Virus record (IMG/VR): IMGVR_UViG_3300030382_001832
Coordinates: 1 to 25,003 of that record
DNA length: 25,003 nucleotides
Source: a virus
Strand: one strand, 5' to 3'
This document shows positions 4,051 through 19,468 of this stretch, piece by piece (position 1 is the stretch's first letter; the number at the start of each line of letters is the position of its first letter). The notes below the pieces were generated by a model. That model had not been told where the DNA came from, searched no databases, and was given only the letters and a program-made list of their open reading frames with translations. Both the position numbers and the translations under genes were made by a program.

Positions 4051-5633
4051 TATTCTGTAGGTATTTCTCCAGGTACTTCTGTAGCTGCACCATTAGGAGC
4101 TTGAGGTTGATTAGCTAGTTGACTAATCTGTTGAACAATTCTTTGTTGTTCTGATTCATCTCTTATCAACTTCTCAGGTAGATTCATTTTTTCTGCTAAA
4201 TATTTTGCTGTTGCACTTTGGTTCACAATTACGTTTATCATTTGTGGGCCAAAAGTACCAGCTATAATTTCATTGAATCTTGTAACATCAGCAACATCTT
4301 GTAAATGTTGAGCTTGTGCTAATGGTGATCTTGGAGCTATTTTTACTTCTCTACCATTAACTTTAGGTAGAGTAATTCTACCTTGTTTAGATAGTATTCT
4401 AATAATTCTTTTTAATAATGGATTAATAAATTCAGATTGAAGTCTACCAAAAGAGGAACCTATTTGTCTTGAAAGATCTGCCATTCTTTCAGAAACTTCT
4501 GTTGCTGTCATTGGAGTTCCTTCAGGTCTTCCTAGTGCTTCCATATAAAGAGCTTTTTTAATATTAGCTCTCATATCTTGAAGTACCAATTGGGCAACAT
4601 CAAAGTTTGATGCTGCCTGAATTGGAACCAAGCCTTTACTCCCAGGAGCTACAGGAATTAAAGAGCCTGGTACAAGGGAGATGTTATCTGGATTTATAAC
4701 ACCATCGTCTTCATAAGTATATACTCCACTTACAGACATTTGTGCATTTTGTAATATTAATTCTATGGTAAGATTGCAGGTTTTTATTGCACCCATTGCA
4801 TTAAATACTGGGCCTCTACCATAGACTTCTCCAGAAGCTTTATTCCATCTGAAAACTAAATAAGGATTAGAACCTTCTCCTTCATATATTTCTTCTAATA
4901 AAATTGCTTTTGGATCTTCCATAACAACGCAGAATTTATATTTTTCTACATTGTCTTCATAAATTTTGTAAATGGCTTCTATAATTTTAATTTGTTTTTT
5001 TCTTTTTAAAGGATCAAAGTTTTCAGGTAAAACTGCTTTAGGATAAAGTAATGTTACTTCATCAGGTTTAATAACTCTTGTTCTATAAATAGTATCTATT
5101 CTTCCATCAGGCCCATTCATTAAACAAACCCGTGGTAAAGGAACTGCTGTAAATTTAATAGGATTAACAGAGTCGCCTTCTTCCACTAGCATCACACCTG
5201 TACCTATAGCTAAATCCATAAAGGATTCGTGTACTTCTTGATTGAAGTTAGATTGTTGTAATGTTTCGAAAACGTAATTAGTAATCTTATCTAATTCTAA
5301 ATTGATAAATGATTTTTGTTGTTCAGGTATTTCTGTACCAGCTTGAAAATCTGCCCATCGAGCAAAGGTAGGAGTAATTCCTGCTTGTAGTCTTGATGCA
5401 AATTCTTGAACACCTACTACTGCTGTTTCATCAAAGATCTTATCTGTACGTCTTTGACCTGGACTTTCTGTATAGAAAGATTCTCTATTAGGTAAACAAT
5501 ACTCATAAGCTTCTTCAAATTTATCTTTCCAGAAATCTTTTACACTTTGAGCTTCCTTATATTTTTTAAGGATTGCTGTTACTCTATCTAGAGATCCATA
5601 TGATGGATCGTCTGTCATATCCATATATGCCAT
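4050..5633 (-). CDS. Portal protein (head-to-tail connecting, T7 gp8-like)
   Basis: A 527-residue portal forming the dodecameric DNA channel at the capsid vertex. The N-terminal region 'FWKDKFEEAYEYCLPNRESFY' with 'RRTDKIFDETAVVGVQEFASRLQAGITPTFARWADFQAG' (about 33-98) is the hallmark of the podovirus head-to-tail connecting protein family; 'GTGVMLVEEGD' and 'VFRWNKASGEVYGRGPVFNAM' (about 255-282) are further conserved stretches, as is 'TPMTATEVSERMADLSRQIGSSFGRLQSEFINPLLKRI' (about 372-410). Length is normal. The C-terminus is Gln/Pro/Asn-rich. It precedes the Bbp19-like and scaffold genes with a one-base overlap. Confidence 0.9.
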   Translation of the reverse strand: MAYMDMTDDPSYGSLDRVTAILKKYKEAQSVKDFWKDKFEEAYEYCLPNRESFYTESPGQRRTDKIFDETAVVGVQEFASRLQAGITPTFARWADFQAGTEIPEQQKSFINLELDKITNYVFETLQQSNFNQEVHESFMDLAIGTGVMLVEEGDSVNPIKFTAVPLPRVCLMNGPDGRIDTIYRTRVIKPDEVTLLYPKAVLPENFDPLKRKKQIKIIEAIYKIYEDNVEKYKFCVVMEDPKAILLEEIYEGEGSNPYLVFRWNKASGEVYGRGPVFNAMGAIKTCNLTIELILQNAQMSVSGVYTYEDDGVINPDNISLVPGSLIPVAPGSKGLVPIQAASNFDVAQLVLQDMRANIKKALYMEALGRPEGTPMTATEVSERMADLSRQIGSSFGRLQSEFINPLLKRIIRILSKQGRITLPKVNGREVKIAPRSPLAQAQHLQDVADVTRFNEIIAGTFGPQMINVIVNQSATAKYLAEKMNLPEKLIRDESEQQRIVQQISQLANQPQAPNGAATEVPGEIPTE

Positions 5634-9581: not shown

Positions 9582-9801
9582 GCTGAAACTTAAGACGCAA
9601 CTATCAGCAAAACAACGCACTCTGTTTAATTTAAAGGATTATCAAAGATGTCTTCTGATGAACTTAAAATCAACCTTGTTGTGAGTGCAATACCACTAGT
9701 CATCTTACGATGGGTAGTTTTCGCCCCACCCCTAAAGGGTGGGTCGAAAGAGAATCGGTACCCTGTACCGATACTTTTAACTGTTAATCGAAACGATTAA
9801 C
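9582..9801 (-). ncRNA. Array of five hairpins between terS and the next gene (possible structured RNA)
   Basis: This 220-bp stretch without a convincing gene holds successive inverted repeats: 9582-9608 (GCTGA/TCAGC), 9702-9713 (CATC/GATG), 9719-9749 (TTTCG + CCCACCC paired with GGGTGGG + CGAAA, one mismatch), 9754-9772 (ATCGGTAC/GTACCGAT, 3-base loop) and 9783-9801 (GTTAATCG/CGATTAAC, AAA loop on plus) which spans the terS stop codon. The last three stand 4-10 bases apart. Read on the minus strand, none is followed by a U-run, so simple termination is not supported. Alternatives are an RNA-processing or stability region, a DNA packaging site next to terS, or a small RNA. Strand and role are inference. 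Confidence 0.5.
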
Positions 9802-10171
9802 TTAAATCGATATTAATTTTAATATCCCCTGTTAGATTATGAGCAACTCTATCTGGTGCTCTTAATCCAACACGATCGAGTATATCTCTACTAGCTTCGA
9901 GCTGAACATACTCTGATCTAGCTCCTGAAGATAGTTCGATCATCCTCTTACTCGCACTTACTGCACCAAGTCCTAGAGTTTGAGCAATCCGTGATTGCAT
10001 ATAACTCTGTACCTTTGGTAATCGTAGTGTGCGAGAACCACTTATTCTCCCTGCTTCAGCAGAACCTTTTGTAGAATAACCAGCCTTAATTGAAGCTTCC
10101 TTAATAGAACATCCTGTTGCTACGATGGTATCTACCAAAGCCTTTTGCTTATCTGTTAACTCGTCAGTCAT
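9797..10171 (-). CDS. terS: Terminase small subunit
   Basis: A 124-residue DNA-recognition subunit of the packaging terminase. The N-terminus MTDELTDKQKALVDTIVAT begins the helix-turn-helix region 'GCSIKEASIKAGYSTKGSAEAGRI' (about 19-42), the usual TerS 'A....GYS...A...G' pattern; 'LRLPKVQSYMQSRI' follows and the C-terminal half is helical, for oligomerisation. ATG at 10171 is preferred over an in-frame TTG at 10222 because the protein then starts at the conserved 'LT.KQ..LVD' segment. It is separated from TerL by four small genes and a structured spacer, more than in many phages. Its stop codon lies inside a perfect hairpin. Confidence 0.82.
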   Translation of the reverse strand: MTDELTDKQKALVDTIVATGCSIKEASIKAGYSTKGSAEAGRISGSRTLRLPKVQSYMQSRIAQTLGLGAVSASKRMIELSSGARSEYVQLEASRDILDRVGLRAPDRVAHNLTGDIKINIDLS

Positions 10172-10225
10172 TAATTCTATTCTGCCTCTTACGTTAGTGG
10201 ACTCAAAGATTCTTCTTGTCAAGCA

Positions 10226-10252
10226 TTATTATGACACTTTAGTGTAAAACAA
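10226..10252 (-). promoter_or_regulatory. Possible leftward promoter with operator-like dyad for terS
   Basis: On the minus strand a CATAAT (10228-10233) resembles a -10 box five of six bases. Directly upstream lies a perfect dyad ACACT-TT-AGTGT (10234-10245, plus-strand reading). A TTGTTT (10247-10252) is present but only 13 bases from CATAAT; spaced 15 from an alternative TAATAA. A dyad abutting a -10 box is where a repressor would act. The phage's two HTH proteins could bind it; this is inference. Confidence 0.3.
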
Positions 10253-10254
10253 TA

Positions 10255-10625
10255 CTCACAACACTACACGTTGTGGTGAGAACTGCAAATAGTTCTCACA
10301 CTCTCCTTGCAATTGAGTGTTCTCGCAAAGTTGATCCTCTTGCACAAAGAGTAAATCACTAAATTGACAAGCAATTTAGACGGACTCCCTGATAGGAGTG
10401 CGTCCTAGATTTTCTCTTTCTGCGTAAAGATAAGGAATCAACTTTGCTGTGAGCACAAGCTACACACGGATTATCTAGCATAACAAGGACTCCCCTTTCT
10501 CTGTCATATCAACAAAGTGTCACACCTAAGAAGGTGTGTCGCCTGGCCCAATAAGATTGGGCAGGACTACACTTTGTCGCAAGACAGAGAAGGAATCCCC
10601 TCGTTAATTGCACGATAATCGTGCG
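10255..10625 (+). ncRNA. Large multibranched structured element in the divergent intergenic region
   Basis: About 370 bp nearly filled with stems. Upstream hairpins: CACAAC/GTTGTG (10257-10275), GTGAGAACT/AGTTCTCAC (10276-10299), ACACTC/GAGTGT (10298-10320). Domain 1 is closed by GCAAAGTTGATCC (10325-10337) with GGAATCAACTTTGC (10434-10447), 13 bp with one bulged A, and encloses hairpins at 10338-10350, 10359-10379 (8 bp, perfect), 10384-10399 and 10415-10430. Domain 2 is closed by CCTTTCTCTGTC (10494-10505) with GACAGAGAAGG (10583-10593), then ACAAAGTGT (10512-10520) with ACACTTTGT (10569-10577), holding hairpins 10521-10538 (7 bp, AAGA loop) and 10542-10565 (10 bp, one bulge): a three-way junction. 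A last dyad GCACGAT/ATCGTGC is at 10610-10624. Extension of the first closing stem uses a G-U pair possible only on the plus strand. It could be an RNA leader, a separate ncRNA, a replication origin or a packaging site. Confidence 0.65.
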
Positions 10626-10662
10626 TTAGCACATTTGTTAAACATAACTGAAAGGATATATT

Positions 10663-10836
10663 ATGATGTTTGATGAGTTAAATAGATTCATTGATCTGAT
10701 GTTAAGTGACTCTGATAAAATGAGAGTTAAAGAACTTAACAGTTCGAGAAATGAAGATAATAAGAATGAAGTAGATGGTGAGATATTCATCATCTATAAT
10801 AAAGCTAATAAAATGAAAGGAGTTGTATATGGATAA
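10663..10836 (+). CDS. First early gene: 57-residue acidic hypothetical protein
   Basis: The ATG at 10663 has AAAGGA 7 bases upstream and opens a 57-codon frame: MMFDELNRFIDLMLSDSDK, a charged middle, then 'EVDGEIFIIYNKANKMKG'. It is mainly helical at the start and beta-like at the end; no membrane segment. It is the first gene rightward of the structured region and overlaps the next start by 8 bases (stop at 10834-10836, next ATG at 10829), so the two are coupled. First-expressed small phage proteins often modify host machinery, but nothing in the sequence shows this. Confidence 0.7.
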   Translation: MMFDELNRFIDLMLSDSDKMRVKELNSSRNEDNKNEVDGEIFIIYNKANKMKGVVYG

Positions 10837-12624: not shown

Positions 12625-12860
12625 TGGGACAACTAGTACCAGCATCGTCAGATGAGATATATTTTGACAAACTAAATGCCATTCGGGATGATTATGCCGA
12701 ATGTAAAATAGAAACAAAAGAACTCCGAACGAGATTACAATCTGAATGTGGAATTGTAAAAGAAGCTGATTTAGATTATGAACAATTATTAGCAGAAGAT
12801 TCTCGTTATGAGTATAAACTAGAACAAGCCAGAAAGGAAAAAACAAATGAAGATAAGTAA
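12624..12860 (+). CDS. Acidic helical hypothetical protein
   Basis: A 78-residue protein, coupled by TAATG to the lipoprotein gene. From residue ~12 it is a charged helix (KLNAIRDDYAECKIETKELRTRL ... YEYKLEQARKEKTNEDK), likely a coiled coil. It overlaps the ParB-like gene by 14 bases. Function unknown. Confidence 0.65.
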   Translation: MGQLVPASSDEIYFDKLNAIRDDYAECKIETKELRTRLQSECGIVKEADLDYEQLLAEDSRYEYKLEQARKEKTNEDK

Positions 12861-13593
12861 AGACGTAATTCATACTACCAAAAATTACAATGCTTTCAAT
12901 AGCTTACGTGGTAATCGAAATATTAGAGAAAGACACGTAAGAAATCTAGTAGAAGCAATTCGTAATAAAGATATGGAGTTACCAATTATAGTTGATGCAA
13001 AAATGAATATCATTGATGGTCAACATAGATTGGAAGCATATAAAATAGTAGGACATCCAATTAAGTACATCATAAGAGATGATCTTAAAATAAAAGATGT
13101 CCGAATGTTAAATTCTGTACAAGCTAAATGGTCAATGACTGAATTTTTAATGTCCTATTGTAAATTGGGCAATAAAGAATATACATTACTAGAATGGTTT
13201 GTAAGAACTTATAAATTTAATATCAAAGAAAGTATAGCAATGTTAAATGGTAAACATTATAGCGATGTTAGAATGTTGAATACTTTTAAAGATGGTAAGT
13301 TTACAATAACACATCTAGAACAAGCAAAGACTTGGGCTAGAAGATTAAGAGAGATAAATGAATATTTTGAATTTTCAAGAAGTCAAAAATTTATTTATGC
13401 AATGCTCTCTTGTTTTGTAAATAAATCTTTTAATTATAAACATTGGATAAAAAAGTTATCTATCAATAGTGTTAAATTAAGAGTTCAAGCAAGTAGAAAT
13501 GATTATATAATTAATATTGAAAGACTATATAATTATAATACAAATCCAAAAAATAGAATTAAATTAGAATTATATCAAAATAATCAAAACTAA
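12847..13593 (+). CDS. ParB/Srx-like N-terminal domain protein
   Basis: A 248-residue protein whose first ~80 residues form a ParB/sulfiredoxin-type domain: 'RERHVRNLVEAIRNKDMELPIIVDAK' then 'NIIDGQHRLEAYKIVGHPIKYII', with the nucleotide-binding GQHR signature at 58-61. The remaining ~165 residues are basic, helical and Tyr/Asn-rich without a recognised HTH. Family members include CTP-dependent partition proteins and phage nucleases; a free-standing phage copy without ParA is more likely a regulator or nuclease. ATG at 12847 follows AAAGGAAAAA. Confidence 0.8.
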   Translation: MKISKDVIHTTKNYNAFNSLRGNRNIRERHVRNLVEAIRNKDMELPIIVDAKMNIIDGQHRLEAYKIVGHPIKYIIRDDLKIKDVRMLNSVQAKWSMTEFLMSYCKLGNKEYTLLEWFVRTYKFNIKESIAMLNGKHYSDVRMLNTFKDGKFTITHLEQAKTWARRLREINEYFEFSRSQKFIYAMLSCFVNKSFNYKHWIKKLSINSVKLRVQASRNDYIINIERLYNYNTNPKNRIKLELYQNNQN

Positions 13594-13616: not shown

Positions 13617-14534
13617 ATGAATACTTTACCAATAAGTAAAGATGTATATTTTGATTGTTCTAAAAAACAATTAAGTTATGCATCAAAAGCATTAGAAGAA
13701 TGTAATGCCGAAGATTTAGATGAAGCATATAAATCGGTAAATAGATATGTCATTGTAAGAGAAGATACAGGTAAAGAACTGGGTATTCATACTGATGACT
13801 ATATCATAAGACCTTATTCTACATTAGCTGAATCAGTTAATGAAGTAGTAAAGGAATGTGTTGATGTAGATAAATATCATATCGATACAAAGGATCAAAT
13901 ATATGAAGACGGAAAGAAATATAGACGAGATATTAATTTCTGGGATGATTCAATTGATCTTAATAATTATCAAAAGAATGGATTCCATATCAAAGGTACT
14001 GAAGAAAAAATCATACCTCAATTAAGAATTTATTCATCAATGGATGGTAGATGGGGGCAACAAATTATGTGGTCCTCAGTTTATGTAGTATGTCTGAATG
14101 GGATGGTAAGACCTGATTGGACATTTGTAGTTTACAATAAACATAATAAAAGAAAAGATATATCATTTGGAACATCTGATTTTAAATTAGGATTAGTAGC
14201 TCATAAAGAGCTAGGTGAAGATCTATTTAAAATGATGCAAAAGAAAGTAACAATTGATGTAGTAAGTCATTTATTTAAGAAAACATTAGCAAGTCAATAT
14301 GCTAGAAAAAGTCTTATTGATCATACAAGTGCTAATGTTATGAAAGACTTAAATAACGCATGGGAAAGATACGAACAAAAATATGGATCAACATTATTTG
14401 CAGTTTATCAAACAGCAACTCATTGGTCTAGTCATCCAGTTACAAAAGGTGCATTACATAATGTATCTAGAAAACGAGAAAAACAAGTAGCTGAAATGAT
14501 GACTTCAAGTGAATGGTTAGAATTAGCTGCTTAA
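13617..14534 (+). CDS. DUF932-like phage/plasmid protein
   Basis: A 305-residue protein with ribosome binding site GAAAGGAAAAC. The core 'RIYSSMDGRWGQQIMWSSVYVVCLNGMV' (about 141-169) followed by a helical C-terminal half with 'HKELGEDLFKMM' and 'TLFAVYQTATHWSSHPVTKG' fits the DUF932 / LGT-type phage-plasmid protein family, in which a beta-rich body contains '.N..DG.........RLVC.NGM'. The biochemical role of the family is not established; it is often linked to replication or recombination modules. A hairpin follows the stop. Confidence 0.72.
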   Translation: MNTLPISKDVYFDCSKKQLSYASKALEECNAEDLDEAYKSVNRYVIVREDTGKELGIHTDDYIIRPYSTLAESVNEVVKECVDVDKYHIDTKDQIYEDGKKYRRDINFWDDSIDLNNYQKNGFHIKGTEEKIIPQLRIYSSMDGRWGQQIMWSSVYVVCLNGMVRPDWTFVVYNKHNKRKDISFGTSDFKLGLVAHKELGEDLFKMMQKKVTIDVVSHLFKKTLASQYARKSLIDHTSANVMKDLNNAWERYEQKYGSTLFAVYQTATHWSSHPVTKGALHNVSRKREKQVAEMMTSSEWLELAA

Positions 14535-17518: not shown

Positions 17519-17551
17519 ACCCAAACATTTTTGGAAAACAGGAGGAACAAT

Positions 17552-18214
17552 ATGAAAATAGTAAGGAATAAAATGACTGAAATGAAACAAGAAGTTAAGT
17601 TCGACCGAAGACAAGGAATCGGTGGTAGTGATGCTACACGATTATATGAAGGAGATTGGTATCAAGTATGGAGTGAGAAAGTTGGAGAAACTCCATCCGC
17701 AGATCTATCAGATGTTCTCCCAGTTCAAATGGGTAAGCATACTGAATCATTTAATATAGATTGGTTTAAAAAACAAACTGGTAATACAGTTATAAGACAA
17801 CAAGAATTTATACAAATGAAAAAGTATCCATATGTCTATGCTCATATCGATGGTGTTGTTAAACAGTTAGATACAAAACTAGGATTATTAGAATGTAAGC
17901 ATACTAATGCTTTTAGTAATCCAACAAAAGTTACTGATAAATATATGGCACAAATACAACATTATTTAATGGTTGCTGAATTAGAGAAAGCATATTTATC
18001 TGTATTCTTTGGTAATTTAAAATATGAAGTTATTGAAATAGAACATAGCATAGACTTTCAAAGAAAGTTGATAGCTGCTGAAGTTCTATTTTGGCACTAT
18101 GTTAAAACTAAACAAGCCCCACCTGAAATGATCACTTGGGATACGTTCAAACCGATTGGACAAAAATTAGATGGAAAAAACAAAGAACTCGTACCCCTAC
18201 TATCCAGGATATAA
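17552..18214 (+). CDS. YqaJ-type (lambda exonuclease-like) recombination nuclease
   Basis: A 220-residue nuclease from ATG 17552, seven bases after AGGAGG; an in-frame upstream TTG is rejected. 'RRQGIGGSDATRLYEGDWYQVWSEKVGE' (about 19-46) is the YqaJ N-terminal signature, 'MGKHTESFNIDWF' follows, and the PD-(D/E)xK site is 'YAHIDGVV' (D100) with 'GLLECKHTN' (E114, K116), then 'YMAQIQHYLMVAE', the Q-x-x-x-Y motif. It would degrade one strand of double-stranded ends and hand the single strand to the annealing protein encoded two genes later. Its end overlaps the next gene by 44 bases. Confidence 0.88.
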   Translation: MKIVRNKMTEMKQEVKFDRRQGIGGSDATRLYEGDWYQVWSEKVGETPSADLSDVLPVQMGKHTESFNIDWFKKQTGNTVIRQQEFIQMKKYPYVYAHIDGVVKQLDTKLGLLECKHTNAFSNPTKVTDKYMAQIQHYLMVAELEKAYLSVFFGNLKYEVIEIEHSIDFQRKLIAAEVLFWHYVKTKQAPPEMITWDTFKPIGQKLDGKNKELVPLLSRI

Positions 18215-18516: not shown

Positions 18517-19083
18517 ATGAAAGAAGTAAATAATACAATACTATGGGATAAGTTTAAACATACTGATCCCAGTTATACCAAACCATTTCCAAAGTTTGGT
18601 AAGACTTTAACAACAATAGATCCAATGTATCAAGTTATGACAATGACTAGAGTGTTTGGCCCTGTTGGAAAGGGTTGGAGTTATGATGCAAAATATCATT
18701 ATACTGAAGCAAATGTATTTGCAGAAGTTAAGATAGTATATTGCCTAGACGATATTTGGTATCGTTATGGCCCAGTCAGTTCAGTTTGTGCTTTGTATAA
18801 AGCAAACTCAAAACTGGATGATGAAGCACCAAAGAAAGCATTAACTGATGCAATGACAAAAGGATTTAGTCATTTAGGCGTAAGTGCTGATGTATTTCTT
18901 GGTATGTTTGATAACAGTAAATATGTATCAGCAATGAAAGAAAAGTTTAATGGTACAGCATCTGCTGAAGGTATCAAAGTTAAAGTAGTTAACTTAAGAA
19001 AAGATATCAAGATTAACAAAAGTAAATTGTTAAAAGATGTCAAAGAAGTCATAAATAATAAGGAGGATAAAAATGATAAATAA
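18517..19083 (+). CDS. Single-strand annealing protein, Rad52/Sak-like
   Basis: A 188-residue protein between exonuclease and SSB genes. The core 'KTLTTIDPMYQVMTMTRVFGPVGKGWSYDAKYHYT' is followed by 'DDEAPKKALTDAMTKGFSHLGVSADVFLGMFDNSKYV' (about 102-138), resembling the helical 'K.A.TDA.K.....LG' signature of Rad52/Sak-type phage recombinases after a beta-sheet that carries 'GP.G.GW'. It would form rings that anneal complementary single strands. The C-terminus is lysine-rich. Strong ribosome binding site AGAAAGGA. Erf or RecT is less likely on motif grounds. Confidence 0.72.
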   Translation: MKEVNNTILWDKFKHTDPSYTKPFPKFGKTLTTIDPMYQVMTMTRVFGPVGKGWSYDAKYHYTEANVFAEVKIVYCLDDIWYRYGPVSSVCALYKANSKLDDEAPKKALTDAMTKGFSHLGVSADVFLGMFDNSKYVSAMKEKFNGTASAEGIKVKVVNLRKDIKINKSKLLKDVKEVINNKEDKNDK

Positions 19084-19468
19084 AGTAATCTTAATTGGAA
19101 GATTGGGAGCTGATCCAGAAATTGGAACAACTAAACAAGATTCCAAGTTTGCTAATTTATCTTTAGCTACGAACAAATCGTGGAAAGATAAAGAAGGCAA
19201 AAAAGCTGAAGTAACAACTTGGCATAAAGTCAAAGTGTTTGATCCTAGACTTGCAGAAAATATGGAAAAGTATGCAAAGACTGGTTCACAGCTTTATATA
19301 GAAGGTGAATTAGAAAATCGTTCATATAAAGATTCCAAAGGGGATCAAAGATATGTAACGGAAGTTCTAGTTCCTAGATTTTCTGGAGTTATCAGAATGG
19401 TTGGAAGTGCTAAACCGAAAACCGAAACTGATACTAAAGAAGAAGAACCTTTTCAAAAACAATTCTAG
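19073..19468 (+). CDS. ssb: Single-stranded DNA-binding protein
   Basis: A 131-residue SSB. OB-fold signature: 'MINKVILIGRLGADPEI' then 'KFANLSLATNKSWKDKEGKKAEVTTWHKVKVFDPRLAENMEKYAKTGSQLYIEGELENRSYKD' (about 24-85), with the aromatic W residues expected for DNA stacking. The acidic tail ends 'EEEPFQKQF', a degenerate version of the SSB C-terminal tip (DDDIPF), so recruitment of host partners may be weakened or changed. It overlaps the annealing-protein gene by 11 bases and has AAGGAGG upstream. Confidence 0.93.
   Translation: MINKVILIGRLGADPEIGTTKQDSKFANLSLATNKSWKDKEGKKAEVTTWHKVKVFDPRLAENMEKYAKTGSQLYIEGELENRSYKDSKGDQRYVTEVLVPRFSGVIRMVGSAKPKTETDTKEEEPFQKQF

Follow-up and report, generated by a model that had tools for sequence, protein, structure and literature searches.

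A folded, exchangeable cassette beside terS in a marine phage as a possible single-strand DNA initiation region

Both filamentous phages and conjugating plasmids go through a stage of single-stranded DNA, from which synthesis of the second strand has to be started. The complementary-strand origins of G4, alpha3, phiX174 and M13 are intergenic stretches of folded single-stranded DNA at which synthesis is started by host primase, primosome or RNA polymerase. Single-strand promoters are known from the F plasmid region, where a folded single strand (Frpo) mimics a duplex promoter; Frpo sites precede SSB and anti-defence genes and yield both primers and transcripts (PMC11541004; PMC7736820).

The locus described here lies in a 25,003-nucleotide stretch of viral DNA, the window (positions 1 to 25,003 of IMG/VR record IMGVR_UViG_3300030382_001832), which comes from a marine phage; the locus is a block of about 370 bases that separates the packaging genes from the early genes. 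The leftward genes include terS, terL, a head-tail adaptor and the major head protein. The terminase small subunit gene terS occupies 9797-10222 on the bottom strand (PHROG 51, E 3e-11) and probably starts at an internal ATG (10171-10169); in most relatives the alignment of homologues begins at residue 11-21. The gene-free span is 10172-10662 with this conserved start and 10223-10662 with the TTG start. Between terS and the leftward gene that follows it (9724-9800) stand three consecutive short hairpins, perfect or nearly so, one of which (9754-9772) is terminator-like on both strands. The early genes, on the top strand, begin with a 57-aa gene (10663-10836) that is homologous in close relatives, and they encode a ParB-like protein (12847-13593; PHROG 12305, E 4e-31), a DUF932 protein (13617-14534; PF06067, E 1e-7), a YqaJ-like exonuclease (17531-18214; PF09588, E 3e-17) and the single-strand DNA-binding protein SSB (19073-19468; PF00436, E 3e-31). 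The early region has SSB and exonucleases, while no helicase or polymerase family was found; DnaB and Pol A had no match in 11 related phage records, some of which are fragments. By TerL, the isolate closest to this phage is Pelagibacter phage EXVC031P Hodr (65.6%), which makes a SAR11 host likely.

The F region examined has SSB, ParB-like and DUF932 genes, as does the early region of the window. The locus would resemble the Frpo and ssi sites of F and ColIb-P9 in that a folded strand of mobile DNA, usually the template strand, lies before genes of the SSB, ParB and anti-defence types. It differs from them in that no -35/-10 pair was recognised by eye in the folded bottom strand (the promoter scan covered linear DNA only), in that its carriers are double-stranded DNA phages and in that several modules lie side by side.

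The gene-free structured element that an earlier note had described beside terS is real, and the stems named there are present at their positions. The block was observed to fold far more stably than shuffled controls on both strands. With RNA parameters the top strand reaches -156.3 (shuffles -97.2) and the bottom strand -177.2 (shuffles -111.4), both with z -10.9 and with none of 100 shuffles as stable, and DNA parameters give z -11.5 (bottom) and -12.5 (top) for 10255-10625, again with no shuffle equally stable. Chance AT-rich sequence is therefore insufficient to account for the element, as the earlier note had held. From left to right the block contains hairpin H1 (10276-10299, with 9-bp perfect arms 10276-10284/10291-10299), a small hairpin H2 (10299-10319, CACTC..GAGTG), domain 1 (10320-10453) and domain 2 (10460-10629), the latter also termed module D'. 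Domain 1 has the 13-bp stem with a bulged A that had been proposed for it (10325-10337/10434-10447), made of 11-bp arms (10325-10335/10437-10447) with CC/GG added across the bulge, and a multibranched head; 8-bp arms were found at 10359-10366/10372-10379. The three-way junction proposed for domain 2 is present, and the computed fold departs slightly from the earlier one in its outer stem, which is 10460-10475/10614-10629, so that the GCACGATAATCGTGC hairpin (10610-10624), which is not conserved as a hairpin, competes with it. Inside the outer stem are a conserved stem (AACAAGG 10482-10488/CCTCGTT 10599-10605) adjoining a conserved internal loop, a stem with 9-bp perfect arms (10497-10505/10583-10591) and the junction itself, closed by another such stem (10512-10520/10569-10577). 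The first junction hairpin lies at 10521-10538 (7-bp arms 10521-10527/10532-10538) and the second, CCTGGCCCAAT..ATTGGGCAGG, at 10542-10565 with a recurrent TCGC directly before it.

A promoter-like sequence, TTAGTG-17-CACTAC, was read by eye from relatives on the top strand at 10239-10267 and was not picked up by the promoter scan. It is clearer in the relatives (TTAGTG or TTGTGT, 16-17 nt, TACTAT, by eye), of which 49 of 69 have a CTCACA..TA-type motif. The ribosome-binding site of the first early gene (10651-10656) lies about 22 nt past the outer stem, and the scan placed no top-strand terminator-like site between the two; the terminator-like sites on the bottom strand fall within the folded block. 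Rfam covariance models, run at gathering and relaxed thresholds on the window and 14 related loci, gave nothing credible, GOLLD and ROOL included, in keeping with the earlier note, which could name no phage RNA class of this shape. ARAGORN found no tRNA or tmRNA, and a nucleotide search of the block in named phages returned one 28-base match at chance level.

Relatives were collected as 80 TerL relatives, five found via the second early gene and pattern matches, and 69 distinct upstream regions with a TerS identity of at least 70% were kept; module counts come from patterns and are approximate. The order of elements on the top strand is promoter-like sequence, module A, hairpins, module C, module D or D', and ribosome-binding site, and the version in the window consists of H1, H2, domain 1 and D'. 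By pattern, D' occurs in 28 of the 69 relatives, D in 32, neither in nine and both in none; D and D' are mutually exclusive. The window, whose D' has the AACAAGG/CCTYGTT stem, internal loop and three-way junction with TCGC, aligns with one relative (L014) at 83% over 10463-10655. The matches listed in a DNA pattern scan for D' were mostly due to chance and only those beside terS were used, while a 17-base contig scan was rejected as module evidence with 26 matches, about the chance expectation by estimate. By nucleotide search, D', C and D were found in no plasmid or named phage.

The folded block is an exchangeable cassette among these relatives. Loci L030 and L047 share 99.6% identity across the 8066 bases that lead up to the block and 98.4% across the 3175 bases beyond it, but the blocks themselves, of 245 and 287 bases, cannot be aligned, one containing D' and the other D. 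Similarly, L084 and L083 match at 99.7% identity for the 3840 bases before the block and diverge from there. In three relatives (L082, L083 and L084) the CUCGC/GCUGUGRG base of domain 1 bears nothing more than a short hairpin; the window has an enlarged head on this common base motif and differs from L082 mainly in that head.

The block is under selection to fold. To treat the two strands alike, G-U pairs were left out of the helix prediction, and the search for covarying pairs proposed in the earlier note found strong compensatory change among the relatives. Double changes restored Watson-Crick pairs in 74% of cases for D' (795/1070), 76% for D (750/982) and 91% for C (901/995), compared with 46-53% in terL coding sequence and 79% in RNase P RNA, the RNase P controls being taken from the genome-contig scan with the 17-base pattern. 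An alignment of all 16 D' sequences with MAFFT and RNAalifold was misaligned, retaining only 16 pairs, and was replaced by the pairwise counts and a closer set of 13 sequences. In this set 22 of 43 pairs have changed on both sides and 93.2% of cells are paired; no shuffle equals the observed pairing, and sliding the partner lowers it to 54% or less. The D' covariation score is 0.375, against 0.179 when shuffled and at most 0.103 when slid.

The strand that folds was examined through wobble pairs, a test that tells the folding strand and does not separate RNA from DNA. When all helices were used the test was weak even for RNase P (67:50 distinct events), and it was therefore redone on compensation-confirmed helices only, where RNase P gave sense 50 to antisense 17 (distinct events 25:11). 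The bottom strand is favoured in two of the three modules: single changes to wobble numbered 49 on the top and 98 on the bottom strand in D' (distinct events 15:32) and 14 and 91 in C (4:18). Module D leans the other way, with 116 on the top and 63 on the bottom strand (16:12).

Module A is an 80-nt element at the terS end of the block, present by pattern in 50 of the 69 relatives. Its core on the bottom strand reads GATCGTYACC..GGG..GAGAC..GGC..TAGAGC, with closing ends of the GCGAC/GTCGC type. The module A model found no copy in the window, where H1 occupies the place that module A has in most relatives; the link between the window and module A therefore runs via relatives such as L055, L041 and L122 that have both module A and D'. 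The 337-base gap before terS in Hodr likewise folds strongly (-101 kcal/mol) but has no recognisable module A. In two members of a more distant TerL clade, a weak module-A-like fold with CCAGATCG..GAGAGCTGG-type ends was seen upstream of terS (L068 2744-2811 and L070 1156-1223; 14.5 bits, E 0.29).

Outside the tailed phages, module A was found in inoviruses, identified by Zot, integrase and a phrog_1159 protein, on the strand carrying the phage genes. The copy in Pf1 lies on the gene-sense strand between PA0719 and the single-stranded DNA-binding gene 5 (40 bits), a region with no origin annotation in the record. Pf1 and related Pseudomonas inoviruses have this placement in common, but Pf1 shares with the tailed phages module A only and not C, D or D', and the cassette of the window itself lacks A. 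A Synechococcus inovirus also has the module. Extra long hairpins are inserted in the second arm of module A in four inovirus loci (L287, L288, L291 and L303) and likewise in a pelagiphage-type locus (L033). A 4.3-kb contig (L293), which may be a small replicon or a fragment, has two different copies about 4 kb apart (30-48 and 4119-4137).

Plasmids, most of them alphaproteobacterial, also have the module (model scores 22-44 bits), near genes for SSB (two cases), ParB, zincin-like metallopeptidases, MobF relaxase and rep. Across replicons the stem beside the ends is AGG/CCT, GGG/CCC, GTG/CAC or GCG/CGC with a constant A-G mismatch, and an A/T to G/C change was seen in 9 of 23 sequences. The left neighbour uses the module A strand as template in seven of the 11 plasmids that could be judged (Skermanella pSR-4, Sphingobium, Methylocystis, Bradyrhizobium, Lichenicola, Rhizobium and Methylobacterium) and lies on the same strand in the other four (Roseomonas, Sphingomonas, Aminobacter and Sinorhizobium). 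Stutzerimonas, with its left side cut, and Skermanella pSR-2, where the module overlaps an opposite-strand gene, were left out of this count; the latter plasmid has a second weak match (L325 5693-5769, 19.4 bits). In the tailed phages, module A is sense to terS and on the strand opposite the early genes. Unlike these replicons, G4, alpha3, phiX174, M13, ColE1, F (45-70 kb) and R100 (1-50 kb) gave no match to the module A model, and a literature search with the core sequence returned no relevant paper.

The inoviruses and plasmids that share module A pass through single-stranded DNA, and the block is therefore probably not an RNA gene but a signal at which the copying of single-stranded DNA is started or primed. 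A fold on the strand that these replicons share, close to genes of the SSB type, suits a single-strand initiation site or a single-strand promoter. Use of the module A strand as template by the left neighbour is the geometry expected of the latter, and in the tailed phages the folding strand would likewise be the template of the early genes. From this anatomy and distribution, with the selected pairing, the bottom-strand bias of D' and C and the lack of a DnaB or Pol A match in the related records also in favour, we consider there to be about an even chance that the block is a cis-acting, bottom-strand single-strand DNA initiation region of the ssi/Frpo kind. Once replication had exposed this stretch as a single strand, its bottom strand, the template for the early genes, would fold into hairpin and junction modules. 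The fold would be recognised by a host enzyme, possibly primase with the primosome or RNA polymerase as on Frpo promoters, which would make RNA on the folded strand. This RNA would act as primer for the complementary or lagging strand and could, with rightward extension, serve the early genes as well. The phages would carry interchangeable sets of modules (A, C, D or D'), and the version in the window may do the job of the module A versions, as suggested by its position, by the D' it has in common with A-bearing relatives and by the interchangeability of the cassettes. Against an initiation region stand the missing module A of the window, the negative nucleotide search for D', C and D in plasmids and named phages, the lack of a visible -35/-10 pair in the fold, the top-strand lean of module D and the four plasmid neighbours that point the other way; moreover, the sequence does not explain why a phage with double-stranded DNA would need a site of this kind. 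With slightly less confidence than for the block, and still short of an even chance, we propose that module A defines a family of folded single-strand initiation elements, unnamed in the sources searched, in filamentous phages, in plasmids that are mainly alphaproteobacterial and in tailed double-stranded DNA phages of the Pelagibacter-phage type, lying in the last within a hypervariable cassette of which the window has a version without A.

Other readings take the fold to be RNA. A structured leader of the terS or late transcript, or an independent RNA like GOLLD or ROOL, made leftward from the bottom strand, would agree with the strand bias of D' and C and with a module A that is sense to terS in the tailed phages and to the genes of inoviruses. 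The size and ornate multibranched form of the block recall large phage RNAs, and GOLLD and ROOL are likewise nested, phage-encoded and built of variable modules. However, such an RNA would place module A antisense to the left neighbour in seven of the 11 plasmids, bottom-strand terminator-like sites lie within the block, no Rfam family matched, and what unites the mobile elements with module A is a single-stranded DNA stage rather than any known function that uses RNA. The strand bias and the spread of module A across replicons point instead to single-stranded DNA, and a leftward RNA appears unlikely. Doubtful to a greater degree is the 5' leader of the rightward early transcript, an RNA that would control the first early genes or be freed as a non-coding RNA. 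The conserved upstream promoter-like sequence, the end of the block just short of the ribosome-binding site with no intervening terminator and the lean of module D all suit a top-strand leader, but the confirmed helices of D' and C have their wobbles mainly on the bottom strand, and module A is gene-sense in inoviruses and opposite the early genes in tailed phages, which argues that the common strand is not early mRNA.

The readings that concern double-stranded DNA are more improbable. The block lies beside terS in nearly all tailed-phage relatives, as would suit a packaging site (pac or cos) or a cruciform bound by terminase. Yet inoviruses and plasmids, which lack a terminase, also have module A, and cassettes have been swapped where the flanks, terS included, are 99.6% identical, an exchange that a terminase-specific site would hardly tolerate; we regard this role as very improbable. 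A structured double-stranded or R-loop origin, its pairing read by an initiator protein with no single-strand initiation, would suit an early region with SSB and exonucleases and no recognised helicase or polymerase, and a GC-skew minimum near 10-11 kb that is confounded by gene orientation. As it explains neither the strand bias nor why inoviruses and plasmids whose initiators are unrelated have module A, we rate it lowest among these readings. Among the roles listed in the earlier note, the evidence comes nearest to the replication origin or primer RNA, and it does not support the top-strand leader or the packaging site.

That near-identical phages have exchanged cassettes suggests functional equivalence among the folded modules and some pressure on them to change. 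If the block is a single-strand initiation region, tailed double-stranded DNA phages of abundant ocean bacteria would share their kind of start signal with plasmids and filamentous phages. This would link replicons whose modes of replication are thought to differ and would offer a way to study how replication starts in phages with no evident helicase or polymerase of their own. Module A would then serve as a searchable marker of single-stranded stages in mobile DNA.
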